DNA of 39,711 nucleotides. Origin: Acidobacteriota bacterium (GTDB taxonomy: Bacteria > Acidobacteriota > Thermoanaerobaculia > UBA5066). Shown piece by piece: positions 450 through 15,431 of this stretch; positions within the stretch are counted from its first letter, which is position 1; every line of letters begins with the position of its first letter. Under the pieces are notes generated by a model. That model was not told where the DNA came from. It made no database searches and was given only the letters and a program-made list of their open reading frames with translations. Location: positions 311 through 40,021 of the forward strand of contig PLZI01000132.1 in assembly GCA_003152095.1 (NCBI GenBank), read 5' to 3'. The translations under genes were made by a program, and so were the position numbers.

Positions 450-694
450 GGCCTTCATCCTCCTTCTTCCAGGGCGAACAGGCTGATGAGCGTGTGGGGC
501 ACGGAGGCACTCGGTCGCAAGCAGGTCTCGCCAGAGCCCATAGGCATCGGGTGCCCCTTCCCCCGCAACAATGCACCACACTCGAGCCCGTTTAACCATA
601 GTTAGTTTGATTCACCCCGGCCAGGGTTCGGGGTCGGTCGCTCATGAGCCTGTCTGATGAGGCGGACGATTAGACTCCGGAAAACGGGGTGGCC

Positions 695-1840
695 ATGAAG
701 TTGATTGTTCCAAGAGAAACCAGGGATGGCGAGAAGCGGGTGGCGCTCGTTCCCGAGTCCGTCAAGAAGCTCGTGAAGGCCGGCATTTCCGTGGCCATCG
801 AGCAGGACTCGGGTGCGGGGTCGTTCATTGACGATCGCGCTTACGTCGAGGCCGGTGCCATCGTCGCAACGGATCTCAAGGCATCGCTTTCAGAGGCAGA
901 TCTCGTGTTGAAGGTCAACCCACCCACCCTTGACGAGGTGGACCTGATGCGGCCGGGCGCCATGCTCCTCGTCCCCCTCACGCCCACCCGGAACCTCGAC
1001 CTGGTCCGAAAGCTCCTCGAGCACAAGGTGACGGCGTTTTCCACCGACACTATACCTCGCATCTCCCGGGCCCAGGCCATGGACTCCCTCTCCTCCATGG
1101 CCTCCATCGCCGGCTACAAGGCCGTGGTCATGGCCGCCGATACCCTCCCCAGGTATTTCCCCATGCTCATGACCGCCGCGGGTACGGTGCTGCCCGCTAG
1201 AGTGTTCGTGATCGGAGCCGGGGTCGCGGGGTTGCAGGCCATCGCCACCGCCCGGCGGCTGGGCGCCGTCGTGGAGGCCACCGACACGCGCCCGGCGGTG
1301 AGGACCGAAATCGAGAGCCTGGGAGCCAAGTACGTGGGCGTCGAGGCGGGCGAAGAGGCTCAGGACGCGGGAGGCTACGCGAAAGAGCTGTCCCAGGAGT
1401 TCTACCGCAAGCAGACGGAGCTGATCGCAAGACACTGTGCGGCCGCCGATGTGGTGATCACGACCGCGCTCATCGGCGGCGTCACGGCGCCGAAGCTGAT
1501 CACCGCCGAGATGGTCGACAAAATGAAGCCCGGCTCGGTCATCGTCGACCTCGCCGCCGCGGGGGGCGGGAACTGCACGCTGACGAAGCCCGGCGAGACC
1601 GTGGAGCACAACGGCGTGAAGATCCTCGCCCCTTTGAACCTTCCCTCGGAGGTGGCCTTTCACGGGAGCCTGCTCTACTCGCGCAACCTCACGGCCTTCG
1701 TCCTGGCCTTCTGGAAGAACGGGGTGTTCGCGCTCGACCTATCGGACGACATCCTCAAGGAGGCCACCATCACGCACGACGGCAAGGTGATTCACATCCC
1801 CACCGCACAGGCCCTGGAGAAAGAAGGAGCCCGCCCGTGA
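695..1840 (+). CDS. pntAA: NAD(P) transhydrogenase alpha subunit part 1 (NAD-binding domain I)
   Basis: This soluble subunit binds NAD(H) in the proton-translocating transhydrogenase, which moves hydride between NADH and NADP+ using the proton gradient. The start MKLIVPRETRDGEKRVALVP is the family N-terminus. The Rossmann motif GAGVAGLQAIATARRLGA lies near residue 172, followed by EATDTRP. The segment GSVIVDLAAAGGGNC is the alanine-dehydrogenase/PntAA signature. The length of 381 residues fits the three-subunit (Rhodospirillum-type) split. I start at ATG 695 because family members begin MKI/MKL; an in-frame GTG at 689 adds two residues. The stop overlaps the next start by 4 nt, so translation is coupled to pntAB. 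Confidence 0.95.
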   Translation: MKLIVPRETRDGEKRVALVPESVKKLVKAGISVAIEQDSGAGSFIDDRAYVEAGAIVATDLKASLSEADLVLKVNPPTLDEVDLMRPGAMLLVPLTPTRNLDLVRKLLEHKVTAFSTDTIPRISRAQAMDSLSSMASIAGYKAVVMAADTLPRYFPMLMTAAGTVLPARVFVIGAGVAGLQAIATARRLGAVVEATDTRPAVRTEIESLGAKYVGVEAGEEAQDAGGYAKELSQEFYRKQTELIARHCAAADVVITTALIGGVTAPKLITAEMVDKMKPGSVIVDLAAAGGGNCTLTKPGETVEHNGVKILAPLNLPSEVAFHGSLLYSRNLTAFVLAFWKNGVFALDLSDDILKEATITHDGKVIHIPTAQALEKEGARP

Positions 1841-2133
1841 ACACCGATCTCCTGATCTCGCATCTCTGGGTCTTCCTGCTGGCGACGTTCGTGGGGCTTC
1901 TGGTGATCCGGCGCGTTTCGCCCTTGCTCCACACGCCCCTCATGTCCCTCACCAACGCCATGTCGGCCATCGCGGTGGTGGGCTCCCTCGTCGTGACCGG
2001 GCGCCAGCAATCGACGCTCAGCACGGTCCTCGGCACCGTCGCCGTGACCGCTTCCATGATCAACATCGTCGGCGGCTACCTGATCACCTACCGCATGTTG
2101 TCCATGTTCAGGAAGGGCAAGCAGGCGAAGTGA
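1837..2133 (+). CDS. pntAB: NAD(P) transhydrogenase alpha subunit part 2 (membrane)
   Basis: A 98-residue membrane protein made mainly of three hydrophobic segments (roughly residues 10-26, 38-53 and 64-85). It is the domain II part of the alpha chain, which forms part of the proton channel with PntB. It starts at GTG within the GTGA overlap with pntAA and ends in the TGATG junction with pntB, the gene order expected for split-alpha transhydrogenases. No catalytic residues are expected here. The identification rests on size, hydrophobicity and position between two clear partners. Confidence 0.9.
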   Translation: MNTDLLISHLWVFLLATFVGLLVIRRVSPLLHTPLMSLTNAMSAIAVVGSLVVTGRQQSTLSTVLGTVAVTASMINIVGGYLITYRMLSMFRKGKQAK

Positions 2134-3527
2134 TGGGCGCCGAGTCCTGGATCCAGATCGTCTACGTTCTGTCTGCCCTTTGCTTCATCCTCGCCCTCAA
2201 CTGGTTGAGCGCGGTCCCCACCGCCCGCCGAGGGGTCCTCACGGGCGTCCTCGGCATGGCGCTCGCCGTCGGCGGCACCCTGCTCAACCCCGGGATCGTC
2301 AGCTACACGTGGATCGCCGTCGCTTTCGTGATCGGCTCCGTCATCGGCGTTCCCATGGCCATGATGCCGATGACCGCCGTCCCACAGCGGACGGCCCTCT
2401 CCCACGCTTTCGGCGCGCTGGCCGCGGCCCTCGTCGGCACGGCGGAGTACTTCCTCCGCGCCGGTGGCGCGGAGATGGACCGGTTCACCATGGGCGCCCT
2501 CGCCGTCGAGGTCATCCTCGGGTTTCTCACCTTCACGGCCAGCCTGATGGCGTTCGGCAAGCTGCAGGAGATTCTCCCTCAGCGGCCCATCACGTACAGG
2601 GGACAGAATCTCGTCAACCTCGGGATGCCGGCCGCGGCGGTGGCCCTCGCCGTCTGGCTGGTCATCCACCCCGGGAGCCATGGCCTGTTTCTGCTCATGT
2701 GCGGGTTGGCCCTCGGCTTCGGCGTGCTGCTGATCGTCCCCATCGGCGGCGCCGACATGCCGACGGTCATCTCCCTGCTCAACGCCTACGCCGGGCTCTC
2801 CGCGGCGGCCATGGGCTTCGTGCTCAACAACAAGCTGCTCATCATCGCGGGCTCGCTGGACGGCAGCTCGGGCCTGATCTTGTCCATCATCATGTGCAAG
2901 GCCATGAACCGGTCCTTTTCAAACGTCCTTTTCGGGGCTTTTGGCCAGGTCACGGCCGCGGTGGCGGCGGGCGAGCAGAAGAGTTACCGGAGCGCCAGCG
3001 CCGAAGAGGCGGCCAGCATCCTTTTGAACGCCTCGTCCGTGATGGTCGTCCCCGGCTACGGCATGGCCGCGGCCCAGGCCCAGCACAAGGTGAGGGAGCT
3101 TTACGACCAACTCACCAGACAGGGCGTGAACGTGAAATTCGCCATTCACCCCGTCGCCGGGCGCATGCCGGGCCACATGAACGTCCTCCTGGCCGAAGCG
3201 AACATCCCCTATGACGCCTTGCTGGATCTGGAAGAGGCCAACTCGGAGCTGCCCCAATGCGACGTGGCCCTCGTCATCGGCGCCAACGACGTGACTAATC
3301 CCGCCGCCCGCCACGACAAGGGGAGCCCCATCTACGGCATGCCCATCATCGATACTGACAAGGCCCGCACCGTGATGGTGATCAAACGCAGCATGAACCC
3401 CGGCTTCGCCGGCGTGGACAACGAGCTCTACACCCTCGACCGGACCCTCATGCTGTTCGGAGACGCCAAGGCTTTTGTCGCCGATCTCATCAAGGAAGTC
3501 GACGCCCAGAGCGGCGGGCGGGGCTGA
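2133..3527 (+). CDS. pntB: NAD(P) transhydrogenase beta subunit (membrane plus NADP-binding domain III)
   Basis: A 464-residue protein whose first ~270 residues are a run of hydrophobic helices that form the proton path with PntAB. The C-terminal ~190 residues are the NADP(H)-binding domain III: VPGYGMAAAQAQHKV is the dinucleotide motif, followed by HPVAGRMPGHMNVLLAEA and the GANDVTNPAA segment that contacts NADP. The length matches the family (about 460). ATG 2133 overlaps the pntAB stop as TGATG; a GTG at 2130 would give a 4-nt overlap instead. It is the last gene of the pnt operon. A gene-poor stretch separates it from the convergent redox operon, whose final gene ends at 4301. Confidence 0.95.
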   Translation: MGAESWIQIVYVLSALCFILALNWLSAVPTARRGVLTGVLGMALAVGGTLLNPGIVSYTWIAVAFVIGSVIGVPMAMMPMTAVPQRTALSHAFGALAAALVGTAEYFLRAGGAEMDRFTMGALAVEVILGFLTFTASLMAFGKLQEILPQRPITYRGQNLVNLGMPAAAVALAVWLVIHPGSHGLFLLMCGLALGFGVLLIVPIGGADMPTVISLLNAYAGLSAAAMGFVLNNKLLIIAGSLDGSSGLILSIIMCKAMNRSFSNVLFGAFGQVTAAVAAGEQKSYRSASAEEAASILLNASSVMVVPGYGMAAAQAQHKVRELYDQLTRQGVNVKFAIHPVAGRMPGHMNVLLAEANIPYDALLDLEEANSELPQCDVALVIGANDVTNPAARHDKGSPIYGMPIIDTDKARTVMVIKRSMNPGFAGVDNELYTLDRTLMLFGDAKAFVADLIKEVDAQSGGRG

Positions 3528-3545: not shown

Positions 3546-3623
3546 CCTACGCGCCCTTACGGCCGCCCTTGGACTGCGGCTTCGGCGGCGCAGGCTTGTC
3601 CGTTCCCTTCGGCTGGTCGCCGA
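3546..3623 (-). repeat. 78-bp copy of the 3' end of the small Cys-rich gene
   Basis: Positions 3546-3623 match 15275-15352 over 78 bp with three mismatches by eye, in the same orientation. On the minus strand both encode the same C-terminus (GDQPKGTDKPAPPKPQ followed by SKGGRKGA and a TAG stop). The copy here lacks the Cys-rich front half. Instead it is joined in frame to a segment reading ATFRFYAELNDFLP from an ATG at 3675, giving a 42-codon chimeric frame (3547-3675). That front segment resembles the start of Mut7-C/ubiquitin-like proteins, by recollection only. I regard the frame as a recombination scar rather than a proven gene. Confidence 0.75.
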
Positions 3624-4300: not shown

Positions 4301-7300
4301 CTAGACGACGGGCAGCTCCCGGCGGGCCTTCTCGAAGATCTTGTCGAACCAGGCCGCGAAGCGGACCTCAAGGGTGTCGAGCCCGAGGGTGGGCACGGGG
4401 GCAAGCGGCCCTCCCAGCCCGGTGAACGGGACCCTAGGCAGCTTGAGGCCATCCGCGTCCCAGACCGCACCCGCGGAGCCAAGGTCGAGCCCCGCCCAAA
4501 TCGGCACCACCCGTCGGATTTCCGCGGTCACGTCCTGGGCGGACCCGTACTTCATCTTGAACCGGTAGCCGAGCAGGCTGGCGAGCTGGCTGAGGATCTC
4601 CCAGGTCTCCATCCCGCCCGCGGGGGGCACCGCGCGCTCCAGTCGCTGCACGCGGCGCTCGGCGTTGGTCATGGTGCCGCTCGTCTCGGCCGTGCTCGAC
4701 AGCGGCAAGGCCACTGTGGCGCAGGCGGCGGTGGCGGTGAGGAAGAGGTCGCCCACGAGCAGGAAGTCGGCGGCCAGCAGGCCGTCGCACAGGTCCTGCG
4801 GGAACCCGGGGGCGCCCACCGGGTCCTCGCCGAGCACGACGGCGACCCTGATCTTCTTGTCGCGCAGGAGCTGGGCCACGTCCAGGCTGGGCGGGGAAAG
4901 GTCGCGCAGGACCGCCCCCAGCTCCTTCTCCATCTGCTCCAGGGCCTCGCCGCCGGCGGGATCGACGTAGCCGGGCAGCCAGCGCGGGTCGGCGCCCATG
5001 TCGAGCAGCCCCTGGGTGTTCGCCTTCTCGCGCAGGGCGAGCAGCGAGCAGCCCAGGGCCGCAGCCGCCTGGGCGAAGAGCCGCTCGTCGTGGGCCAGCC
5101 GCGAGCCACGGTAGTCCTTGTTGAACAGCATCACCTTGAGGATGGTCTTAGCCAGGATGGCGGCCGCCTCGCGCGAGGCGGCGCGCGCCACCCCAGAGAG
5201 CTTCTCCAGGCGCTCGTCGGAGAGATCGGCCACCGCCTGGGCCAGCTCCGGCCGGTCGTCGAGGGCGCCCGGCCGCAGGGCGACGTAATCCTTCAACAAG
5301 CCGAGGACGGCAAAGGCTTGCCCGCCAGGCAGGCAGCGCAAGTGCAGCTCGGCAAAGCGCGAGGTGCGGTTGTCCTCGGGGCCGACGTAGACGAGGCGGG
5401 CGCCTTTGCGGATGGCCTGCTTGCAGGCGATGTCCACCGCGAAGCTCTCCTCGTCGAGGGCCGCGTTGACGACCAGCAGGGCCTGGGCGTCGACGATGTC
5501 CGCGTAGGAGGCCGTGGACACGACTTCCGGGGCCTGCAGCTCGCGGTTGACGAGGTGGGCCAGCGAGGTCACGTTATGCGTGCGCAAGGCCAGCCGGGCC
5601 AGCTTCTGGGCGAGGTAGATCTCCTCGTTGGTCAGGCGGGGGGAGACGAACACCGCGACCTGGTCGCCGCTGTAGTGGCGGGTAAGCTCCTTGAGCCGCA
5701 TGGCGGAGTAGCGCAGGGCCTCGTCGAGGCTGCTCTCCTGCAGCTCGCGCCCGACGCGCAGCATGGGCCAGCGCAGGCGCTCGGCCGACTGCACGTGGCC
5801 GTAGCCGAAGCGGCCCTTGCGGCAGTGGTTACCGCCGGTGCCCGCGTCGTCAGCCGCACGCGAGACCTGCACCAGGGTGGTGCCGGAGACCTCGTAGCCC
5901 AGCCGGCACCCCGCGCTGCAGTAGGGGCACACCGATTCCACCCGGGTGGTCTTCCAGGGGCCGGGCTTGGTCAGGGTCAGCTTCTCGGAGATGGCCCCCG
6001 TGGGGCAGGTACCGATGCACAGCCCGCAGCTCACGCACTCGGTGTCGAGCAGGGAGTCGCCCAGGGCGGGCTTGACCACGGTGTCGAAGCCGCGGTTGAC
6101 AAAGCCGTAGGCGGCCACCCCCACCAGCTCGCTGCAGATGCGCACGCAGCGGCCGCACAGCACGCACTTGTTGGGGTCGAGCACCAACAGCGGGTGGCGC
6201 CGGTCCACGGAGTGTTCGACGGCCGCGCCCATGAACGTCTGCACGTCGGCCCCGTACTCGGTGGCGTGGCGCCGCAGATCGCAGGTGAAGAGGGCGGTGC
6301 AGCCGCACTCCAGGCAGCGCGCCGTCTCCCGGCGCAGGTCCTCGCGACTGTACCCGGTCTCGACCTCGGCGAAGCTGAGGGCGCGCTCCGCGGGCGGGAG
6401 CACGGGCATGCTCCGCCGCCCCTCGGTGGAGCCTGGGGGCAAGTCCTCGATCTCGACCTTGTGGTACGCGTCCTTGCGGCTGTACACCTCCACCGGCTCG
6501 GGCTCGGCCCGGCCGGTGGCCACGTAGCGGTCGATGGCGTAGGCGGCCTTGCGTCCGGCGGCGATGGCCTCGATGGCGGTGGCCGCCCCCGTGACCACGT
6601 CGCCTCCCGAGAACACTCCGTCCACGGTGGTCTCGAAGGTGCGCTCGTTGACCTCCACGGTCTGCCAGCGGGTGAGGCTCAGCGTTTCGCCCAGGGGCAG
6701 GAAGTTGGGCACCCGCCCGTCCACCAGCTCCTTGACGCGCGTGCCCTGGCCGATGGCGGCGAGCACGAAGTCGCAGTCGATGCGGAACTCGGAGCCGCGA
6801 ATGGGCCTGGGACTGCGGCGGCCGCTCTGGTCTGGCTCGCCCAGCTCCATGCGGATGCACTCCACCCCTGCCACCCGGCCGTTCTCCCCGCACAGCACCC
6901 GAACGGGGGCGACCAGGAAGTCCATCTTCACGCCCTCGTGCTCCGCCTCCACGATCTCCGTCTCGTTGGCGGGCATCTCCTTGCGCGTCCGCCGATAGAG
7001 GATGCGAACTTCGGCGACGCCCAGGCGCAGGGCGGTGCGCGCGCAGTCGACGGCGGTGTTTCCGCCACCCACCACCAGCACCCTGCCGTGGATGTCGATC
7101 CTGCGCTTGAGGCCGAACTGCTTGAGGAAGTCGATGCCGGCCAGCACCCCCGGCGAGTCCTCGTCCTGCACACGCATCTTGGAGCTGTCCCAGGCCCCCA
7201 GCCCCAGGAAGATGGCGTCGTAACCGCCCTGCTTGAGGCTGGCCACCGTGAAGTCGCGCCCGAGCCGGACGTTGGTGGAGAGCTGGACGCCGAGGTCGAG

Positions 7301-8065
7301 GATCTGGTTGATTTCCAGGTCGAGCACGTCCTTGGGCAGACGGTACTCGGGGATGCCGTAGCGCAGCATGCCCCCCGCTTCGGGCTGGGCCTCGAACATC
7401 GAGACCTTGTAGCCGCGCAGGGCGAGGTAGTAGGCGCAGGAGAGCCCCGCCGGGCCCGCCCCCACCACCGCCACCTTCTTGCCGTTGGGAGGGGCGAGGC
7501 TCGGGCGCCAGGGATCCTTGTCACCCAGGTCGAGGTCGGAGAGATAGCGCTTGATGTAGTCGACGCCCACGGCCTCGTCGAGCAGGGTGCGCCGGCAGCC
7601 CTTGACCTCGCAGGGGCGTGTGCACACACGCCCGCACACCGCGGGCAGGGGATTGCGGTCCTTGATGAGAGCGATGGCGTCGCGGTGCTTGTTCAGGGCG
7701 GCCAATGCGATGTAGCCCTGGATGTCCACCCCCGCCGGGCACGCGAGCTGGCAGGGGCCGATGCAGTCCGCGTAGTGGTTGGAGAGCATCAGCTCCAGGG
7801 CTGCCTTGCGCGAGCGCCGGATCTCCGGGTTGGAGGTCTCCACCACCATGCCCGCCGCCACCCTGGTGGAGCAAGCCGGCGCCAGCGTGCGCGCGCCCTG
7901 CACCTTCACCACGCACAAGTAGCAGGAGGCGAAGGGCTCGAGGCGCCCGTCATGGCAGAGGGTCGGGATGGAGGTGATCCCGTTCTCGCGGGCGACCTCC
8001 AGGATCGTCATGCGGTTGTCGGCGATGACCCGTTTGCCGTCGATGTGAAGCTTGACGAGTTCCAC
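4301..8065 (-). CDS. NuoG-like ferredoxin / GltD-like flavoprotein / truncated molybdopterin-oxidoreductase fusion
   Basis: A 1254-residue soluble redox protein. Residues 1-75 are a NuoG-type [2Fe-2S] ferredoxin with Cys37, 48, 51 and 65. Residues 95-530 are a glutamate-synthase-beta-like module: N-terminal Cys cluster (101-157), FAD motif GAGPAG at 202-207, NAD(P) motif GGGNTA at 333-338 and the terminal FAD segment FSGGDVVTGAATAIEA. Residues 625-690 hold two [4Fe-4S] sites (Cys634/637/640/644 and 677/680/683/687). From residue 705 a molybdopterin-oxidoreductase fold begins with Cys713/716/720/748. It stops without the usual C-terminal pterin-binding domain, so like NuoG it probably binds no molybdenum (inference). 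The start is GTG 8065, 4 nt after the nuoF stop. The likely role is the third subunit of a NuoEF-containing NAD(P)/ferredoxin oxidoreductase. The domain set recalls Geobacter SfrA and SfrB in one chain. Confidence 0.85.
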   Translation of the reverse strand: MELVKLHIDGKRVIADNRMTILEVARENGITSIPTLCHDGRLEPFASCYLCVVKVQGARTLAPACSTRVAAGMVVETSNPEIRRSRKAALELMLSNHYADCIGPCQLACPAGVDIQGYIALAALNKHRDAIALIKDRNPLPAVCGRVCTRPCEVKGCRRTLLDEAVGVDYIKRYLSDLDLGDKDPWRPSLAPPNGKKVAVVGAGPAGLSCAYYLALRGYKVSMFEAQPEAGGMLRYGIPEYRLPKDVLDLEINQILDLGVQLSTNVRLGRDFTVASLKQGGYDAIFLGLGAWDSSKMRVQDEDSPGVLAGIDFLKQFGLKRRIDIHGRVLVVGGGNTAVDCARTALRLGVAEVRILYRRTRKEMPANETEIVEAEHEGVKMDFLVAPVRVLCGENGRVAGVECIRMELGEPDQSGRRSPRPIRGSEFRIDCDFVLAAIGQGTRVKELVDGRVPNFLPLGETLSLTRWQTVEVNERTFETTVDGVFSGGDVVTGAATAIEAIAAGRKAAYAIDRYVATGRAEPEPVEVYSRKDAYHKVEIEDLPPGSTEGRRSMPVLPPAERALSFAEVETGYSREDLRRETARCLECGCTALFTCDLRRHATEYGADVQTFMGAAVEHSVDRRHPLLVLDPNKCVLCGRCVRICSELVGVAAYGFVNRGFDTVVKPALGDSLLDTECVSCGLCIGTCPTGAISEKLTLTKPGPWKTTRVESVCPYCSAGCRLGYEVSGTTLVQVSRAADDAGTGGNHCRKGRFGYGHVQSAERLRWPMLRVGRELQESSLDEALRYSAMRLKELTRHYSGDQVAVFVSPRLTNEEIYLAQKLARLALRTHNVTSLAHLVNRELQAPEVVSTASYADIVDAQALLVVNAALDEESFAVDIACKQAIRKGARLVYVGPEDNRTSRFAELHLRCLPGGQAFAVLGLLKDYVALRPGALDDRPELAQAVADLSDERLEKLSGVARAASREAAAILAKTILKVMLFNKDYRGSRLAHDERLFAQAAAALGCSLLALREKANTQGLLDMGADPRWLPGYVDPAGGEALEQMEKELGAVLRDLSPPSLDVAQLLRDKKIRVAVVLGEDPVGAPGFPQDLCDGLLAADFLLVGDLFLTATAACATVALPLSSTAETSGTMTNAERRVQRLERAVPPAGGMETWEILSQLASLLGYRFKMKYGSAQDVTAEIRRVVPIWAGLDLGSAGAVWDADGLKLPRVPFTGLGGPLAPVPTLGLDTLEVRFAAWFDKIFEKARRELPVV

Positions 8066-8069
8066 GGCC

Positions 8070-9833
8070 CTACACTCTCGTGATCGCTTCGAAGCGGCAG
8101 GCCCGGTAACACTCGTCGCAGCGGGTGCACAGGCTGTGGTCGATGACGTGGGGCTTACCCTTCTCACCGGTGATGGCCTTGGCCGCGCAGGCCCGTCCGC
8201 ACACTCCGCAGCCGTTGCACTTCTCGTTGACGGTGTAGGTGAGCAGGGCCTGGCACTGGTGGGCGGGGCACTTGCGGTTGGAGATGTGCGCCTCGTACTC
8301 CGCCCGGAAGTACTTGAGGGTGGTGAGCACCGGGTTTGGTGCGGTCTGGCCCAGGCCGCACAGCGAATTGTTCCTCACCAGGGAGGCCAGGTTCTCCAGC
8401 CTCTCGATATCCCCCTCCTTGCCCTTGCCCTCGGTGATCCGGACGAGGACCTCCAGCATGCGCTTGGTGCCCACCCGGCAGAACGTGCACTTCCCGCAGG
8501 ACTCGCGCTGGGTGAAGTCCAGGAAGAATCGGGCCACGTCCACCATGCAGGTGGTCTCGTCGAGCACCACCAGCCCGCCCGACCCCATGATGGCGCCCGT
8601 CTTGTTGATGGACTCGTAGTCGATGACGGTGTTTTCCAGCTCCGCGGGGATGCAGCCCCCGGAGGGGCCGCCCATCTGTACGGCCTTGAACTTGCGGCCT
8701 TCCTTGATACCCCCGCAGACGTCGTGGACGATCTCCCTGATGGAGATCCCCATTGGGACCTCCACCAGCCCGCCCCGCCGGATCTTGCCGGCCATGGCGA
8801 AGACCTTGGTGCCCTTGCTGTTGGCGGTGCCGAGGCGGTTGAAGGCCTGCGCCCCGTTGAGCACGATCCAGGGCACGTTGGCAAATGTCTCCACGTTGTT
8901 GATGTTGGTTGGGCACTCCCACAGGCCCTTGACCGCGGGGAAGGGCGGCCGCATCCGCGGCATGCCGCGGCGTCCCTCGATCGAGGCGATGAGGGCGGTC
9001 TCCTCGCCGCACACGAAAGCTCCCGCCCCCTCCTTCAGCTCGACGTGGAACTCGAATCCGGTGCCGAAGACGTCGTCACCCAGGAGGCCGCGCGCCTCGG
9101 CCTGGGCGACGGCGATGTTCAGCCGCTCGACGGCCATGGGGTACTCGGCGCGCACGTAGATGTAACCCTGCGTGGAGCCGATGGCGTGGCCCCCGATGGC
9201 CATGCCCTCCAGCACCGAGTGGGGGTCGCTCTCCAGGACCGAGCGATCCATGAAGGCCCCGGGGTCGCCCTCGTCGGCGTTGCAGATCACGTACTTCTGC
9301 TTGCCCGGGGCCAGCCGCGTGAAGCGCCACTTCATCCCGGTGAGGAAGCCCGCCCCCCCGCGCCCTCGCAGCCCCGACTCGATGATCACGTTGATGAGGC
9401 CGTCGGGGTCGTTCTGGTAGAGAACCCTCTTCAAGGCCTGGTACCCGCCCACCTCCAGGTACTCCTCGATCTTCTCCGGGTCGATCACCCCGCAGTTGCG
9501 CAGCACGATGCGCTCCTGGCGGTCGAGGAAGGCCTTCTCCTGGCCCTTGCCGTCGCTGGTCCACACCAGCCACTCCTCGATGGGCTCGCCCTTCCCGACG
9601 TGCTCCTCGAGCAACCGGTCGACTCTATCCGGGGTCATCTGCCCGTACTGCCAGCGCTTCCCGTCGTTCTCGCGCACCTCCACGAGCGGCTCGCGGTAGC
9701 ACATGCCCACGCAGCCGGTCTTCCCCACCTTGCAGCTGCCGTGGAGCGTCCCCGTCCTGGCCAGGATCGCGGCGTAGGTCGCTCCGGCGCCCGCCGCCAC
9801 CCCGCACGTGCCCAGCCCCACAAGGATCCTCAC
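8070..9833 (-). CDS. NADH dehydrogenase (NuoF/HydB-like) flavoprotein subunit
   Basis: A 587-residue NuoF-type protein that oxidises or reduces NAD(H) on FMN and passes electrons to Fe-S clusters. The N-terminal ~100 residues are a thioredoxin-like [2Fe-2S] domain (Cys10, 34, 41, 45). The FMN site GLRGRGGAGFLTGMKW and the NADH site GAGAFVCGEETALI follow, then the [4Fe-4S] motif SCGKCTFCRVGTKRM with a distal Cys. The C-terminus adds two ferredoxin-type clusters (CNGCGVCGRAC and CTRCDECYRAC). This extended form is typical of HydB/HndC subunits in multimeric [FeFe]-hydrogenases and NADP-reducing complexes, not of respiratory complex I. Its start overlaps the nuoE stop by 4 nt. Confidence 0.92.
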   Translation of the reverse strand: MRILVGLGTCGVAAGAGATYAAILARTGTLHGSCKVGKTGCVGMCYREPLVEVRENDGKRWQYGQMTPDRVDRLLEEHVGKGEPIEEWLVWTSDGKGQEKAFLDRQERIVLRNCGVIDPEKIEEYLEVGGYQALKRVLYQNDPDGLINVIIESGLRGRGGAGFLTGMKWRFTRLAPGKQKYVICNADEGDPGAFMDRSVLESDPHSVLEGMAIGGHAIGSTQGYIYVRAEYPMAVERLNIAVAQAEARGLLGDDVFGTGFEFHVELKEGAGAFVCGEETALIASIEGRRGMPRMRPPFPAVKGLWECPTNINNVETFANVPWIVLNGAQAFNRLGTANSKGTKVFAMAGKIRRGGLVEVPMGISIREIVHDVCGGIKEGRKFKAVQMGGPSGGCIPAELENTVIDYESINKTGAIMGSGGLVVLDETTCMVDVARFFLDFTQRESCGKCTFCRVGTKRMLEVLVRITEGKGKEGDIERLENLASLVRNNSLCGLGQTAPNPVLTTLKYFRAEYEAHISNRKCPAHQCQALLTYTVNEKCNGCGVCGRACAAKAITGEKGKPHVIDHSLCTRCDECYRACRFEAITRV

Positions 9834-10339
9834 GAGCCCGCCTTCGTCTTCTGCTCCCGATAGGGCTTGAGCACCTTCCTGAGGTCGGCGGGCTTGAGGT
9901 TGCCGTGGGTGTCCTTGTTGATCATGAGCACCGGGGCCAGGCTGCAGCAGCCCAGACAGGCCACCGTCTCCAGGGTGAACTCGCGGTCCGGGGTGGTCTC
10001 CCCCTCCCCGACCCGCAGCTGGTCCTTCAGGGCCTTGGAGATCCCATCGGCCTGCGCCACGTGGCAGGCCGTGCCGTGGCAGACCTTGATGATGTTGCGG
10101 CCCACGGCGTGCTGCCGGAACTGCGCGTAGAAGGTGGCCACCCCGAAGATCTGCGAGAGGGGCACCCCCGTCTTCCTGTGGATCTCGGCGATCCGCTCGC
10201 GGGAGATGTAGCCGTCCTGGACTTGGAACTTTTGCAGGAGTGGGATCAGGACCCCGCCCGCCCCCTTGTAGTGGAGGTTCTTGAAGTCATACGCGCGTGG
10301 CGCTTCCACGTCGTGGGCTCCCGGCGCCGCGCTAGTCAT
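9830..10339 (-). CDS. NuoE-like [2Fe-2S] thioredoxin-fold subunit
   Basis: A 169-residue NuoE/HydC-like protein, the usual partner of NuoF. The N-terminal helical part (GVLIPLLQKFQVQDGYIS, then ATFYAQF) is the family pattern. The four cluster ligands appear as CHGTAC (with HV after) and CLGCCSLAP. It transfers electrons from the NuoF FMN through a [2Fe-2S] centre. It overlaps the zinc-ribbon gene by 8 nt upstream and nuoF by 4 nt downstream, so the three are translationally coupled. No other complex I genes are present, so this belongs to a soluble oxidoreductase. Confidence 0.93.
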   Translation of the reverse strand: MTSAAPGAHDVEAPRAYDFKNLHYKGAGGVLIPLLQKFQVQDGYISRERIAEIHRKTGVPLSQIFGVATFYAQFRQHAVGRNIIKVCHGTACHVAQADGISKALKDQLRVGEGETTPDREFTLETVACLGCCSLAPVLMINKDTHGNLKPADLRKVLKPYREQKTKAGS

Positions 10340-10733
10340 AGGGCGTCTCGAACATGCGGTTCATCAGGCTCATCATGTCGTCGATGTTGCCGGTGCCCCC
10401 GAGGGCATGGGCCTTGCACCCGCGCCGGGAGCAGAACTCCAGGTAGCCGCCTTTGGCAATGTCGAGCGACGCCATGGCGGCGCCGCAGATTTTGCAGGCC
10501 AGCGGCAGCATCAGGCTGGCCTCGCACTTCGGGCAGCTGAGATCAACGACGTCGCCCTCCTCCAGGGCGAGGTCCGTCTCCACGCCGTAGTCGCCGAAGA
10601 CGGCGCTCAGGGAGATCGCCCCCTGCTGGTGGGTCCGGCGCACGTGGCCGTCGAGATGCACGCGCGCGCCCTCGGTGAGCGCCGCGCCGCACTGGGGACA
10701 GCGCAGCTCCAGCACGAGCATCTGTTTAGTCAT
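10332..10733 (-). CDS. Small zinc-ribbon-type protein of unknown function
   Basis: A 133-residue protein with four pairs of metal-binding-type cysteines: CPQC (about residue 12), CPKC, CKIC and CSRRGC. The pattern suggests two zinc ribbons or rubredoxin-like knuckles. The C-terminal tail (DDMMSLMNRMFETPYD) is Met-rich and acidic. I do not recognise a named family. It overlaps the [FeFe]-hydrogenase-like gene by 8 nt at its start and nuoE by 8 nt at its end, which points to an obligate partner, perhaps an assembly factor or small subunit. That role is inference only. Confidence 0.8.
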   Translation of the reverse strand: MTKQMLVLELRCPQCGAALTEGARVHLDGHVRRTHQQGAISLSAVFGDYGVETDLALEEGDVVDLSCPKCEASLMLPLACKICGAAMASLDIAKGGYLEFCSRRGCKAHALGGTGNIDDMMSLMNRMFETPYD

Positions 10734-12066
10734 GGACTGGTTCCTTCGTGGAGGCCATCGCCTCCTGCAGCCTTTCGAGGCGGACGAACACGCAGTCCTC
10801 CAGCGCGGCCAGGCCGCGCACAACGTCCTCGGCGTGGGCGGCGCAGCTCGGGGCGCCGCACGCCGCACAGTCCTTCGCCGGCAGGTCCGCCATGACCCGC
10901 TCCACCTCGCGCTTGCGTGCCACCGACTCGCGCAGGTTGCGTCCCAGCGGGCGCACCGGACGGGCCTTGAGGTGCTCCTCGAGGTCGAAGAAGTGCTCGC
11001 GCAGCATCGCGCGCACCTTCTCCTCGGGCACCACCGCCCCTTCGCCCGCCTGCCGGCCGTGCCGGCGCACGATGTGCTGCACGGTGCGCCGGGCGGCGTA
11101 GCGGTTCTCCACCGTGAGCTGCCCGCTGATGCAGCCGTCCGGGCAGATGTACGCCTCGATGAAGTCGACGGCCTGAAGCTTGCCCTCCTCGATGTGGTCG
11201 AAGACCCGCAGCACGTCGCGCACGCCGGCCACGGTGATCGTGTTGGCGTTGCGCATGCCCGCGATCTCCCCGCCCGCCATCGCCCAGAGCAGCCCGCGCT
11301 CGCTGATGGGCGGGGGGTTCTCCACCGGCCCGTTGGCCTTGATGGCCTTCAGCAGCGGACCGTAGACCTCGGCGATGGAGAAGGCCCCGTCCAGGTACGA
11401 CGCCTCCAGGGCTTCCGGGTGGTGGATGGACTGCAGCATGGCGCTGCACGGAGTGATGAAGAAGATGCCGATGTCGCCGGGCGCGAGCCCCTTTTCCGCG
11501 ACGAGCCGGCGGCGCAGCAGCTTGGCGGCCAGCTCGCGCGCAGTCTCGATCGGCAGCAGGTTGTCGATCATGTCCGGGTAGCGGAGCTGGATCAGGTGGA
11601 TGATGGCGGGGCAGGTCACCGAGACCTTGGGCCAGGGACCGCGGCACTCCGAGAGGTAGGCGTCGGTGGCGCTCGCGTGCATGTCGCACATGGCGGACAG
11701 GTCGTAGACGTCGTCGAAGCCCAGGCTGCGGAGGGCCTGCAGCACTTGCCCCGGCTCCACGTCCCTGCCGAACTGGGAGTACAGGGTCAGCGTGGGCAGG
11801 GCCACCGTGTACTTGAAGCGCTTGAGGTCCGCGGAGGTGGCGGTCGCCGCGTGCATCGCCCCGTGCCGGCACCAGCGGATGCACTCGCCGCAGTCGATGC
11901 AGAGGTCGGGGTCGGCGACCGCGCACCCGGCCCGCACGCGGATCGCCGCGGTGGGGCAGGCCTTGCAGCAGTCGACGCACCCCACGCAGCGCTGCGGGTC
12001 GAAGACGATCGAATGCTCGCTCCTCGGGCGCTCGCCGTCCGCGACGTCAGGCAAGTCGCACCGCAT
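10726..12066 (-). CDS. [FeFe]-hydrogenase-like protein with altered H-cluster loops
   Basis: A 446-residue protein. Residues 20-70 carry two ferredoxin clusters (Cys27/30/33 or 34/37 and 56/59/62/66). Residues 85-330 align with the hydrogenase large-subunit core, but the signature loops differ. L1 is VTCPAI (Cys152) rather than TSCCPGW. L2 is TPCSAM (Cys207) rather than MPCTAKK. L3 is CPDGCISGQ (Cys308, Cys312) rather than MACPGGCxxGGGQP. The four cluster-ligand cysteines are kept, but the L1 cysteine thought to relay protons and the L2 lysine are not. A C-terminal Fe-S domain (CAACGAPSC, about residue 416) is typical of HsfB-like sensory or regulatory homologues. The context with DRTGG and RsbW-like proteins fits that group. 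No hydEFG maturation genes are in the window. Confidence 0.85.
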   Translation of the reverse strand: MRCDLPDVADGERPRSEHSIVFDPQRCVGCVDCCKACPTAAIRVRAGCAVADPDLCIDCGECIRWCRHGAMHAATATSADLKRFKYTVALPTLTLYSQFGRDVEPGQVLQALRSLGFDDVYDLSAMCDMHASATDAYLSECRGPWPKVSVTCPAIIHLIQLRYPDMIDNLLPIETARELAAKLLRRRLVAEKGLAPGDIGIFFITPCSAMLQSIHHPEALEASYLDGAFSIAEVYGPLLKAIKANGPVENPPPISERGLLWAMAGGEIAGMRNANTITVAGVRDVLRVFDHIEEGKLQAVDFIEAYICPDGCISGQLTVENRYAARRTVQHIVRRHGRQAGEGAVVPEEKVRAMLREHFFDLEEHLKARPVRPLGRNLRESVARKREVERVMADLPAKDCAACGAPSCAAHAEDVVRGLAALEDCVFVRLERLQEAMASTKEPVHD

Positions 12067-12466
12067 ACGTGAGCGTCGTGCCGACCCCGGGGGTCGACTC
12101 CAGCCGGAACTCGTCCGCGCTGTTCTTGATGTTCGGCAGGCCGAGGCCCGCTCCGAAGCCGCGGGCGCGCATCTCCGGTGTGGCGGTGGACCAGCCCGGG
12201 GTCATGGCCAGCTCGATGTCTGGGATCCCCCGGCCGCGGTCCGCCACCACCACCCGCACCGCCTCGGGCAGCACCTGGAAGCTCAGGTCCGCCTCGTCGG
12301 CGTGCATGATGACGTTCATTTCCGCCTCGAAGTTGGCGATCGAGAGCCGGCGGATGAGGTCCGGCCGGATCCCCAGGTCCTTGCAGATGGACTTGATGCG
12401 CGTGGCCACCTCTCCCCCGTGCTCGAAGTCGCCCCCGCGGATCTGGAAGGTCTCGGCATAGAGCAC
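12047..12466 (-). CDS. RsbW-like anti-sigma/histidine-kinase-type ATPase
   Basis: A 139-residue GHKL-fold ATP-binding protein. The N-box lies at ANFEAEMNVIMHA, the G1 box at DRGRGIPD and the G2 box at GFGAGLGLPNIK. There is no dimerisation/phosphoacceptor domain, so it resembles anti-sigma-factor Ser/Thr kinases such as RsbW/SpoIIAB. I start at GTG 12466, 5 nt after the previous stop. The end overlaps the hydrogenase-like gene by 20 nt. Genes of this type recur in operons of anaerobic [FeFe]-hydrogenase homologues. A regulatory role sensing redox state is an inference. Confidence 0.85.
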   Translation of the reverse strand: MLYAETFQIRGGDFEHGGEVATRIKSICKDLGIRPDLIRRLSIANFEAEMNVIMHADEADLSFQVLPEAVRVVVADRGRGIPDIELAMTPGWSTATPEMRARGFGAGLGLPNIKNSADEFRLESTPGVGTTLTYAVRLA

Positions 12467-12471
12467 CTCGC

Positions 12472-12840
12472 TCAGGGCGCGGTCCCCTGTTGCTTGGTGG
12501 AGGCGGGCAGGCCGCCCCGGTGCAGGCGGCCGCAGGCCTCGTACATGGTCAGGGTGGTGGACAGCAGGGGCAGGCCGCGCGCGCGGGCCAGGGCCAGCAC
12601 CTGCGCGTCGGGCCGCTTGTCGTTGACGTAGAGGATGGCCTGCGCGTCGACCACCTCGGCGGTGTGCACCGACTGCAAGTTGGTCAACCCGGTGATGAGC
12701 AGGGGCCCGTGCCCGCAGAAGGCCAGCACCTCGCTCATGAGGTCGGCGGCGAAGCAGCCAGCGATCTCCCGGCCGCCGGCCTGGTCGAGGGCCAGCAGGT
12801 CCGTGCAGCCGAGAAGCGTGACGATCTCCGCGAGAAGCAT
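12472..12840 (-). CDS. DRTGG-fold protein (second copy)
   Basis: A 122-residue protein resembling DRTGG-domain proteins, the small alpha/beta fold also found with CBS domains and phosphotransacetylase N-termini. The pattern is IAGCFAADLMSEVLAFCGHG followed by LLITGLTNLQSVHTAEVVDA. It aligns in outline with the 109-residue neighbour at 12874, so the two are probably ancient duplicates. The ATG at 12840 is preceded by a GGTGAGG-like ribosome site. Such proteins accompany sensory hydrogenase homologues; their ligand is unknown, though nucleotide binding is often proposed. Confidence 0.7.
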   Translation of the reverse strand: MLLAEIVTLLGCTDLLALDQAGGREIAGCFAADLMSEVLAFCGHGPLLITGLTNLQSVHTAEVVDAQAILYVNDKRPDAQVLALARARGLPLLSTTLTMYEACGRLHRGGLPASTKQQGTAP

Positions 12841-12873
12841 GCCCTCACCTCGGGGTCGCGTCCGGGCGGCCGT

Positions 12874-13203
12874 CTAGCGAATGCCGGCCTCATACAGCTT
12901 CGTGGCCATTTGCCAGCGATTCAGGGCCGTGGTGAACACCGTGATCTCGGCCTTCTCCGCCATCTTCACCACGTCGTCGGCGAGGGCCTTGCCCTGGGTG
13001 ATGACGATGGCGCAGGTGTCGACCAGGTTGGCGGCGGCGATCACGTTGGCGTGCGCCTGCGCGGTGACCAGTAGGTCGCCCGCCTTGGCGTTGGCGATCA
13101 CGTCGCTGACCATGTCCGATATGTAGACGCCCGTCACGTCCCGATCGAAGACCTTGGTGGCCGCCTTGAGCTCGAGCCGCTCCGCGAGTTCCTGAATCTT
13201 CAT
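12874..13203 (-). CDS. DRTGG-domain protein
   Basis: A 109-residue stand-alone DRTGG protein. The core reads VTGVYISDMVSDVIANAKAG, then LLVTAQAHANVIAAANLVDT and AIVITQGK, which fits the family well. The ATG at 13203 has AGGAG 6 nt upstream. It sits 10 nt after the stop of the unknown gene upstream and 33 nt before the second DRTGG-like gene. In many anaerobes such proteins are encoded beside RsbW-like ATPases and HsfB-type hydrogenase homologues, the same neighbours seen here. The biochemical role is not established. Confidence 0.82.
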   Translation of the reverse strand: MKIQELAERLELKAATKVFDRDVTGVYISDMVSDVIANAKAGDLLVTAQAHANVIAAANLVDTCAIVITQGKALADDVVKMAEKAEITVFTTALNRWQMATKLYEAGIR

Positions 13204-13213
13204 CCTGTGCTCC

Positions 13214-13816
13214 TCATTCCATGGACGTGAGGCCGAAGTCGACCGCGATCTGCTGGTAGGTGATCTTCCGGTGGAGGCCGAAGAAGTCGGGCAGGATCAG
13301 CACCTTCTTCTGGGGACTGGTCAGGCGCTCGTTGAAGAGCGCGTTGAGGATCCGGACCTTCTCAAGGGGCATGGGCGCATGGCCCTCCTCGCCCTCGGTG
13401 GTGATCGCCACGTAGAGCGAGACGCGCTGGTCGTGGGCCAGGTCGCCCATCTGGTAGACGGTGCTGTCCTTGGCGCAGCAGGCGTAGTACAGGAGCCCCG
13501 CCAGCTCGCCGAAGGGCACCACCTGGCCGGTCTGGGTGTCGCGGACGTCGAACTGGAAGGTCTGGGCCGCCTCCTGGGGCTTCCAGAACCGATTGCCCTC
13601 GCGGTACTCCTCCAAGGGCGGGGTCCGCTCTGCCACGAAGTAGCAGCGCCGGGCGAGAGTGTGGTTCTCCAGCTCGATCATCAGGTAGCCTGGCCGCACA
13701 TTGACCATCTCGTAGCGCCGGTCACGCTTAGCGGTCCTCTTTAGCGGCCTCACGACGCTCTCCTGCAGCAAGGATCGGGTAAGCTGGAACCCGGTGCAAT
13801 GAAACGTTCGCATCAT
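13214..13816 (-). CDS. Conserved-looking protein of unknown function, first gene of the redox operon
   Basis: A frame of up to 200 residues that I do not recognise. The N-terminal third is basic (RPLKRTAKRDRRYEM). The rest is mixed alpha/beta with no Cys motif, signal peptide or membrane segment; FGLHRKITYQQIAVDFGL near the C-terminus could be a helix-turn-helix-like stretch. The start is uncertain: ATG 13816 has no clear ribosome site, and an internal ATG at 13711 (MVNVRPGYLMIELENH) is an alternative giving 165 residues. It lies 10 nt upstream of the DRTGG gene, so it is probably cotranscribed. Confidence 0.6.
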   Translation of the reverse strand: MMRTFHCTGFQLTRSLLQESVVRPLKRTAKRDRRYEMVNVRPGYLMIELENHTLARRCYFVAERTPPLEEYREGNRFWKPQEAAQTFQFDVRDTQTGQVVPFGELAGLLYYACCAKDSTVYQMGDLAHDQRVSLYVAITTEGEEGHAPMPLEKVRILNALFNERLTSPQKKVLILPDFFGLHRKITYQQIAVDFGLTSME

Positions 13817-14155
13817 CCGCTGAAAGTCAAGTCGGTCAAGCGCTTAGCGAGTGTCTGTTCGAGACTCTTGCCGGATACGTGCGTTCTCTCTGCCTACCGA
13901 GCTGCCGCAGGGCAGACAGAAGCACTTGAAAAGAGGTTGAAGGCGCAGCTGGGGAATTTGTCGGTTGTCGCTCGTGCAATGGTCCCGGCTCGACGGGTCT
14001 GGTGGATTTAGGGGTGACCGTACACGAGGTCCCCGTCCAGCCCGCGTCCTCTTCTGTTAACCGTGGGATCCCTCCTCGGGGCCACCTGTTGAACGAAACC
14101 GCTTCGCGGTAGCTGCCCTCGGGACGAGGCGTCCAGACCCCGATCGCCGAGCTTT
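13817..14155. other. Intergenic region upstream of the redox operon
   Basis: This stretch must hold the promoter of the minus-strand operon, but I see no convincing -35/-10 or sigma-54 pair. A 70-codon plus-strand frame (13799-14011) overlaps the first operon gene, lacks a ribosome site and resembles nothing known, so I do not call it. The right half contains an attC-like hairpin (14055-14094) and then the left end of the IS3 element at 14156. Confidence 0.5.
14055..14094 (+). repeat. attC-like hairpin, weaker copy
   Basis: An imperfect hairpin with GTGG/CCAC and CCC/GGG arms (14063-14085) is bounded by TGTTAAC on the left and GTTGAAC on the right. The right box fits the integron R' consensus GTTRRRY; the left box fits RYYYAAC poorly. 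The 15-mer CTGTTGAACGAAACC at 14086-14100 recurs exactly in inverted orientation at 15191-15205, inside and beside the better attC-like site. At 40 bp it is short for an attC. Confidence 0.35.
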
Positions 14156-14194: not shown

Positions 14195-14488
14195 ATGGGC
14201 TCAGAAAGGTTGGCTGTCATGGAGGAGTTTTCTCGGAAGGCGGATGGTCGGCGGGTCTTTTCGGTGGCGTTCAAGCGGGAGACGGTGGCTCGGATCACGT
14301 CGGGTGAGAAGACCCTTGCCGAGCTCTCGCGAGAGCTCGGCATTTCGCCGAGCGTCGTTCGAAACTGGATGCGCCTGGTGGAGCGTGGCGGGACGACCGC
14401 GGTGGCGGCTGGCGAACCAGATCCTCTCCGTGACCAAGACGCGGGCTTCGTACGGCTACCGGCGCACGCACCGGCTCGTCAATCGTGA
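14195..14488 (+). pseudogene. IS3 transposase OrfA, truncated
   Basis: The first ~70 residues are a transposase_8 helix-turn-helix domain: FSVAFKRETVARITSGEKTL, then AELSRELGISPSVVRNWMRL. After about residue 70 (TTAVAAG) the expected leucine-zipper segment of OrfA is missing. The frame instead reads out-of-frame OrfB sequence until a stop at 14488. The start may be ATG 14195 or 14219. Only the DNA-binding part of OrfA remains. Confidence 0.8.
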
Positions 14489-15143
14489 GCGGGAGGCCAG
14501 CGGGGAGACGCCCTACAACCGCAAGAGAATCCGGCGTGTCATGCGGATCGCCGGCCTGATGCTTCCGGGGAAGAAGAGACATCGTTTCGATCGGCCTCAT
14601 ACCGGGAAAGTCGAGATGCCCATCTCCAACCAGCGTTGGTGCTCCGACGGATTCAACATCCCCTGCTGGAACGGAGACGTCGTGAGGGTCGCCTTCGCCC
14701 TCGACTGCCACGACCGCGAGGCTCTCGGGCACGTGGCCCGCGCCCGGGATCTTCGCGGCGAGGACATCAGGCTTCTGCTCGACGAGGCCCTCTGGTCCCG
14801 GTTCGGCGAACGCACTCTCACGGCTCCCGTCGAGATCCAGTGGCTCTCGGACAACGGCGGCCCCTACACTTCGACGGACACGGTCCTCTACGCCCAGACT
14901 CTCGGTTTCCGCCCGGTGACGACCCCGGCCTATAGCCCCGAGTCCAACGGCATGGCCGAGGCCTTCGTGAACACCGTCAAGCGTGACTACGTCCACGGCG
15001 CCGATCTCTCCGACGGGGAAACGGTCATCCGGCAGCTTCCCAGATGGATCGACGACTACAACAGAATCGCTCCCCACTCTTCCCTCGCAATGCGTTCCCC
15101 AAAGGAGTGTCGTGCCCTCAACCCTCAGATTTCATGTGTCTAG
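14406..15143 (+). pseudogene. IS3 transposase OrfB, N-terminally truncated
   Basis: The frame from about 14406 encodes the OrfB body starting at ANQILSVTKTRASYGYRRTH, followed by the rve integrase core. Candidate DDE residues are present: the Asp in RWCSDGF, the Asp in LSDNGGPYTS and the Glu in NGMAEAFVNTVKRDY. The N-terminal HTH_21 region normally upstream (about 50-60 residues) is gone. No start codon with a ribosome site is visible at the junction. Family resemblance is to IS2-like IS3 elements. Confidence 0.8.
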
Positions 15144-15257: not shown

Positions 15258-15275
15258 GCTCCTGCGCTCTCTTCC

Positions 15276-15431
15276 CTACGCGCCCTTACGGCCACCCTTG
15301 GACTGAGGCTTCGGCGGCGCAGGCTTGTCGGTTCCCTTCGGCTGGTCGCCGATGACCGTCTTCAGGGGGCAGAACGAGAAGGCTGGACACTTCTTGCAAC
15401 CGACGGCGAGAGCGACGGGGCAGAGAGTCAT
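15276..15431 (-). CDS. Small Cys-rich protein (51 aa), function unknown
   Basis: From ATG 15431, with GGAG 6 nt upstream, the frame encodes 51 residues. The front half is MTLCPVALAVGCKKCPAFSF then CPLK, with four cysteines (Cys4, 12, 15, 21) spaced like a small metal- or cluster-binding knuckle. The tail is a basic, Pro/Lys-rich segment (PKGTDKPAPPKPQSKGGRKG). Its 3' end is duplicated at 3546-3623. I have an impression of similar short proteins in anaerobic and denitrifying proteobacteria but cannot name a family. The attC-like site just downstream suggests it was acquired as a cassette. Confidence 0.65.
   Translation of the reverse strand: MTLCPVALAVGCKKCPAFSFCPLKTVIGDQPKGTDKPAPPKPQSKGGRKGA

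Follow-up and report, generated by a model that had tools for sequence, protein, structure and literature searches.

Gene organization of the operon

The window, a stretch of 39,711 nucleotides (nt) from an Acidobacteriota genome (G000:C155:311-40021; genome size 3.64 Mb, 99.28% complete), carries an operon in which a six-gene front part, including a homologue of [FeFe]-hydrogenases (HydS-like), precedes three genes assigned to an electron-bifurcating transhydrogenase. All nine genes lie on the minus strand and span 13816 to 4301, with intergenic distances of −20 to +33 nt. Families were assigned from Pfam and NCBIfam profile searches, judged against the family cut-offs; gene order, key residues, maturase matches and the loss of a lysine were likewise computed. 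A first-pass annotation of the window had described nine closely spaced or overlapping genes at 4301–13816, and each of these was recovered with its family supported by the profile matches. The start of gene 6 was corrected to 10733, and gene 9 most likely starts at 8065 (GTG, 4 nt past the preceding NuoF gene) rather than at 8167. Long plus-strand frames opposite the nine genes are read as antisense artefacts of the high G+C content. A promoter and terminator scan of the operon yielded nothing above the shuffled expectation; one weak −35/−10-like site was seen at 13839–13812.

Genes 7–9 and the StnABC/Nfn-Bfu family

Gene 7 (9830–10339, minus strand) encodes a thioredoxin-like 2Fe-2S subunit with the predicted gate cluster (StnA/BfuC/NuoE; PF01257, 156 bits), gene 8 (8070–9833, minus) the predicted bifurcating subunit for flavin mononucleotide (FMN) and NAD(H) (StnB/BfuB/NuoF), and gene 9 (4301–8065, minus) a fused subunit of the StnC/NfnA type of 1254 residues, in which Fer2, DPD_II/GltD and NuoG/molybdopterin domains were recognized by Pfam/NCBIfam in one frame. 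The best PDB match of the fused subunit was 9bov_A (E 5e-251), and 8oh5_C (StnC of Sporomusa ovata) and 9n5u_A (NfnA) were matched as well. NuoF aligned over its full length (residues 1–584) to 9bov_B, 9n5u_B and 8oh5_B (StnB), and its matches to StnB/NfnB outranked those to every relative from hydrogenases, formate dehydrogenases and complex I. For NuoE the best match was 9n5u_C (NfnC), followed by 7t2r_C (subunit C of a NiFe-hydrogenase), 9bov_C, 8a6t_C (HydC) and 8oh5_A (StnA). The NuoF protein has an N-terminal 2Fe-2S domain and a C-terminal 2x4Fe-4S ferredoxin domain (Fer4 at 532–586), and a Pfam search did not find the Molydop_binding domain in the NuoG part of gene 9.

The residues of functional interest in StnC were compared by alignment to 8oh5_C. 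The lysine near cluster C7 (K170 of StnC) corresponds to K172 and R239 to R242, and both are invariant in five orthologues of the fused subunit; C114 of StnC, which varies within the family, is I115 here. The StnB loop NADEGDP is identical, including E184 and D186. StnABC oxidizes NADPH in a reversible reaction that is coupled to reduction of both NAD+ and ferredoxin; bifurcation takes place at the FMN of StnB, and the FdhF-like domain of StnC is catalytically inactive (PMC10482914). The Nfn-Bfu of Thermococcus sibiricus likewise bifurcates from NADPH to NAD+ and ferredoxin (PMC9304861). The assignment of genes 7–9 as an electron-bifurcating transhydrogenase of the StnABC/Nfn-Bfu (BfuABC) family is thus well supported by sequence; we infer its activity and direction from these relatives. 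The first-pass annotation had guessed at bifurcation among NADH, NADPH and ferredoxin, and the end-to-end matches to StnABC/NfnABC (Nfn-Bfu) with the key residues kept argue that this guess was right (PMC10482914, PMC9304861).

With StnABC (S. ovata, PDB 8oh5/8oh9) and PDB 9bov the enzyme shares three subunits and the 2Fe2S-GltD-NuoG/FdhF fusion, and with StnABC also the K170, R239 and StnB loop residues and the ferredoxin domain. It differs from StnABC in the isoleucine at the C114 position, in its Acidobacteriota host and in the six genes that precede it. Nfn-Bfu/NfnABC (PDB 9n5u and the T. sibiricus enzyme, PMC9304861) agrees with the enzyme here in the bifurcating BfuBC core and in a BfuA that binds NADP(H), whereas NfnA is shorter (963 versus 1254 residues) and without much of the C-terminal FdhF-like part. 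The two-subunit NfnAB form does not apply: NuoE/NuoF-type subunits stand in place of the NAD(H) subunit with flavin adenine dinucleotide (FAD) and a 2Fe-2S cluster, and the likeness to the large Nfn subunit is limited to the GltD part of gene 9. The GltD-bearing subunit had been singled out at first as special to this operon. That view does not hold, as the 2Fe2S-GltD-NuoG fusion is not new; it is the defining subunit (StnC/NfnA) of a known family with solved structures, of which the enzyme is a further member.

Conservation of the gene order

Nine genes in this order, the fused subunit among them, were also found in G185, G161, G021 and G231, and in G168 where the set is split over contigs C88 and C48. 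The order thus occurs in 6 of the 297 genomes sampled from the phylum, that of the window included, which indicates that the order proposed in the first-pass annotation is not due to chance. The orthologues in these operons are about 65% (65–66%) identical for StnC and about 73% for NuoF. A genome of the same genus as G000 (G055) has neither HydS nor StnC, so the distribution of the operon is patchy. Fused and split forms occur in the same context, so homologous operons do not always split these genes, the outcome that the first-pass annotation had named as refuting. Related operons of the phylum have a separate GltD gene (L060-L062, L064-L066), GltD fused to NuoF (L046, L049, L051, L053, L055) or a ferredoxin-rich BfuA (L045, L052, L056, L063), and a hydrogenase domain was absent from all ten proteins scanned from these three types.

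The NuoF (BfuB)-GltD fusion forms a single frame of about 1030–1066 residues in L046, L049, L051, L053, L055 and L073. In L046 it is followed by a short BfuA and by a protein that resembles glutamate synthase on visual inspection (L046:11490-13073), and a HydS module adjoins. The BfuA of L045, L050, L052, L054, L056, L058 and L063 is ~590 residues long, with an N-terminal 2Fe-2S domain, several ferredoxin domains, at most a Pyr_redox remnant and no hydrogenase domain; the complex with this BfuA is a bifurcating complex with a third substrate. A locus from Stahlbacteria (L078) has a 986-residue fused 2Fe2S-GltD-NuoG protein in the context of a HydS module, in which HydS keeps the lysine discussed below, and that genome gave no HydG match.

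In Bacillota, a DRTGG-RsbW-HydS-DRTGG-PHP module lies upstream of a genuine HydABC (Thermoanaerobacter wiegelii, L129, and many others). Outside Bacillota, in Acidobacteriota and several other phyla, the module often adjoins Bfu complexes that are not hydrogenases. It is attached to Bfu complexes of differing composition and gene position, sometimes on the opposite strand. The operon studied here shares with the T. wiegelii module the order of DRTGG, RsbW-like ATPase and HydS, but here RsbW follows both DRTGG genes, genes 1 and 6 are extra, and neither a PHP gene nor an [FeFe]-hydrogenase HydA is present.

The HydS-like protein

Gene 5 (10726–12066, minus strand; PF02906, 84.6 bits; PF04060, 37.2 bits) is the sole Fe_hyd_lg_C gene found in its genome, which also has one full-length [NiFe] hydrogenase. 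The protein has the architecture of group D (M2e) and resembles TamHydS, with two N-terminal 4Fe-4S motifs, the H-domain, a C-terminal Cx2Cx4Cx16C motif and no PAS domain (PMC8163306, PMC13104023). Its AlphaFold model (mean predicted local distance difference test, pLDDT, 87) has the fold of [FeFe]-hydrogenases (Foldseek E 6e-20). The four H-cluster cysteines are kept (C152, C207, C308 and C312), so that 4Fe-4S clusters are expected, and T205 occupies the M353 position; the accessory cluster motifs are kept in the HydS clade.

The lysine of the PCxxK motif is replaced by M210 (codon at 11437–11439, minus strand, from the alignment). We take this lysine to be the counterpart of K358 of CpI, which contacts a cyanide of the [2Fe] subcluster in known enzymes. 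Methionine or isoleucine is found at this position in 6/6 members of the clade, as compared with lysine (100) or arginine (2) in all 102 other homologues. The six lysine-less sequences form a single clade (support 100), and the loss is therefore counted as one evolutionary event. A pattern-based scan of genome contigs revealed no more members of the lysine-less clade among the matches listed, and further searches, directed at the order to which G161 belongs and at the class of G021, gave none beyond those known. A literature search on K358 yielded nothing useful.

TamHydS, a putative sensory enzyme of group D/M2e that is able to carry an H-cluster (PMC8163306), shares with gene 5 the N-terminal and C-terminal cluster motifs around the H-domain, a serine or threonine at M353, the missing PAS domain and a histidine-kinase-like ATPase as neighbour, the latter recorded earlier (PMC8163306). 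Gene 5 differs in the methionine at the PCxxK lysine, in a genome where HydE, HydF and HydG were not detected, and in a partner that is a transhydrogenase and not a hydrogenase. H2 is reported not to reduce the C-terminal cluster of TamHydS (PMC13104023). In the third H-cluster motif of the L064 and L065 HydS proteins, the initial cysteine (C499 equivalent) is replaced by histidine, and HydF and HydG are present in those genomes.

Occurrence of the H-cluster maturases

None of the maturases HydE, HydF and HydG was found above cut-off in the genome of the window or in G168, G185 and G161; the same searches gave clear matches for all three in G021 and G231. Within the phylum, HydF and HydG were not above cut-off in 13 of the 19 genomes that carry this HydS family. 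Among HydS genomes reached via named loci, HydG was not above cut-off in 15 of 20 from outside Bacillota (12 without a match, 3 with weak or partial ones; WOR-3, Stahlbacteria, Zixibacteria, Ignavibacteria, Chlorobi, Sumerlaeota and others) and was present in 5/5 from Bacillota, counts that are limited by genome incompleteness and sampling. When HydA next door was compared with HydG in the genome, the difference was in the expected direction but not significant (3/4 versus 7/26; Fisher p 0.095). The failure to detect maturases in its own genome and the loss of the lysine argue against a complete H-cluster in gene 5, and its hydrogen-binding metal centre has probably been lost. A direct role of the hydrogenase homologue in the electron-transfer complex, as first proposed, is not borne out: the protein belongs to a separate signalling-type module that accompanies many bifurcating complexes, and maturases for it were not detected.

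Other genes of the front part

Gene 1 (13214–13816, minus strand) encodes a 200-residue protein with no Pfam/NCBIfam match, and its AlphaFold model (pLDDT 76) gave no PDB fold match at E≤0.001. It is the conserved first gene in L040-L044 and L060-L066; homologues in split-type operons have two CxxC zinc-ribbon-like motifs, which are lost in the branch of this operon. Gene 2 (12874–13203, minus) encodes a stand-alone DRTGG-domain protein (PF07085, 34.8 bits, above cut-off) with orthologues of 63–94% identity in fused-type operons, and gene 3 (12472–12840, minus) a second, DRTGG-like protein (PF07085, 22.1 bits, below the cut-off of 25.2) with 50–75% orthologues at the same position across loci. 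A literature search on DRTGG together with hydrogenase or RsbW yielded nothing useful. Gene 4 (12047–12466, minus) encodes an RsbW/SpoIIAB-like GHKL ATPase (HATPase_c, 34.8 bits, above cut-off) that scores below the equivalog cut-off of TIGR01925 (44.6 versus 135 bits). Its GHKL N, G1 and G2 boxes are readable (N box EAEMN, DRGRG and GFGAGLGL), and the gene overlaps that of HydS by 20 nt. Gene 6 (10332–10733, minus) encodes a 133-residue zinc-ribbon-like protein with weak zinc-ribbon matches below cut-off. It was seen only in fused-type operons; 54–82% orthologues occur in L040-L042, L044 and, inside its HydS frame, L043.

Role of the HydS module

The explanation we favour, and consider rather probable, is that the operon combines an StnABC-type transhydrogenase with a regulatory module whose HydS descendant acts as a redox sensor and lacks the [2Fe] half of the H-cluster. 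NADP(H) would react at the FAD in the GltD part of StnC, and the chain of 4Fe-4S clusters in the GltD/NuoG part would carry electrons to StnB, whose FMN would split them between NAD+ and ferredoxin with the 2Fe-2S cluster of StnA as the gate; in the reverse direction NADH and reduced ferredoxin would yield NADPH. The soluble StnABC could in this way set the balance of NADH, NADPH and ferredoxin. The front genes would stand outside the electron-transfer complex. The HydS-like protein, a presumed descendant of group-D 'sensory' [FeFe]-hydrogenases with up to four 4Fe-4S clusters and no [2Fe], may be fed via its N-terminal clusters by ferredoxin or by the complex and change its shape. Most likely it would read the redox state of ferredoxin or NADPH and signal it to the RsbW-like ATPase and to both DRTGG proteins, the latter being possible targets or nucleotide sensors, and these would adjust synthesis or activity of the transhydrogenase.

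Several points weigh against this explanation. We infer, rather than observe, the signal, the partner and the output of the HydS module, and no STAS or sigma partner gene for the RsbW-like protein was found within the operon. The cysteines of the H-cluster cubane are kept throughout the clade and so give no sign of a lost [2Fe] site. G021 and G231 have the maturases although their HydS proteins also lack the lysine, while other HydG-less genomes usually keep it; lysine and maturases are not tightly linked, and the lysine kept without HydG may have a second role. Metagenome-assembled genomes may also miss genes.

It appears improbable that the HydS-like protein carries a complete H-cluster and, as a true sensor of H2, adjusts the transhydrogenase to it. 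The group-D architecture is retained, as are the four cluster cysteines and the M353-to-Thr change, and the [NiFe] hydrogenase gene suggests a cell to which H2 matters, but HydE, HydF and HydG were not above cut-off in 4/6 genomes with the operon, and the lysine that contacts the [2Fe] cyanide in known enzymes is lost. Loss of this lysine and of the maturases would suit a protein that helps to assemble or mature the iron-sulphur clusters of the cluster-rich StnC, rather than a sensor, as would the conserved linkage to several kinds of large iron-sulphur enzymes; the eukaryotic hydrogenase-like proteins Nar1/Narf offer a precedent in principle. Such a role is unlikely, though less so than H2 sensing, as it leaves the RsbW-like ATPase and DRTGG companions unexplained, group-D relatives can carry an H-cluster (TamHydS, PMC8163306) and S. 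ovata StnABC has been made active in E. coli (PMC10482914).

The shared operon and its overlapping genes could also mean that HydS is an extra subunit of one large NADH/NADPH/ferredoxin/HydS machine. This is as improbable as H2 sensing, because three subunits make a complete and active enzyme in StnABC and in the archaeal Nfn-Bfu (PMC10482914, PMC9304861), and the module joins Bfu complexes of different composition and gene position, sometimes on the opposite strand. Least probable of all is that the NuoEFG-like names and the FdhF-like domain reflect an ordinary, non-bifurcating NADH/NADPH dehydrogenase or a formate dehydrogenase. The NuoF protein carries the 2Fe-2S domain at its N terminus and the ferredoxin domain at its C terminus that belong to the bifurcating BfuB type, and Nqo1 or Fdh subunits match it far less well than StnB/NfnB do; the NuoG part, in which no Molydop_binding domain was found, is inactive in StnC (PMC10482914).

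Overall, the HydS-like protein is best read as a repurposed group-D descendant that serves the bifurcating transhydrogenase, without an H-cluster, as redox sensor or scaffold. The new point would be that a HydS module that is independent of H2, lysine-less and apparently independent of maturases is joined to a known enzyme. Group-D HydS proteins have been proposed as H2 sensors. The position of the HydS module beside non-hydrogenase bifurcating complexes, in genomes apparently unable to build the H-cluster, suggests sensing of redox state (ferredoxin or NAD(P)H) and not of H2. More tentatively, with chances slightly short of even, DRTGG/RsbW/HydS may be a general redox-control module of BfuBC enzymes and not an H2 sensor, in which HydS proteins outside Bacillota are commonly H-cluster-free iron-sulphur sensors and the clade studied here has even lost the [2Fe]-contacting lysine. 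These natural, probably H-cluster-free versions are offered for testing what group D senses.

Flanking region

A pntA1-(pntA2)-pntB operon for a proton-translocating NAD(P) transhydrogenase (window 689–3527, plus strand) is convergent with the bifurcating operon at a distance of ~770 nt. StnABC-type bifurcation is thus placed in Acidobacteriota next to the proton-driven PntAB, which performs the same conversion; in the work on Stn, anaerobes are said to have neither PntAB nor UdhA (PMC10482914). That pntAB is part of the system was considered and set aside, as none of the other fused-type loci showed pntAB. The operon and a neighbouring IS3-type transposase (window 14195–15143, plus strand) are both enclosed by a 78-nt direct repeat (96% identical; window 3546–3623 and 15275–15352); the transposase consists of two overlapping frames (HTH_Tnp_1 and rve). 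Parts of the sequence around the repeat recur on contigs C13 and C26. Together with the absence of HydS and StnC from the genome of the same genus, the repeat and the recurring sequence could indicate a mobile or replaced segment.

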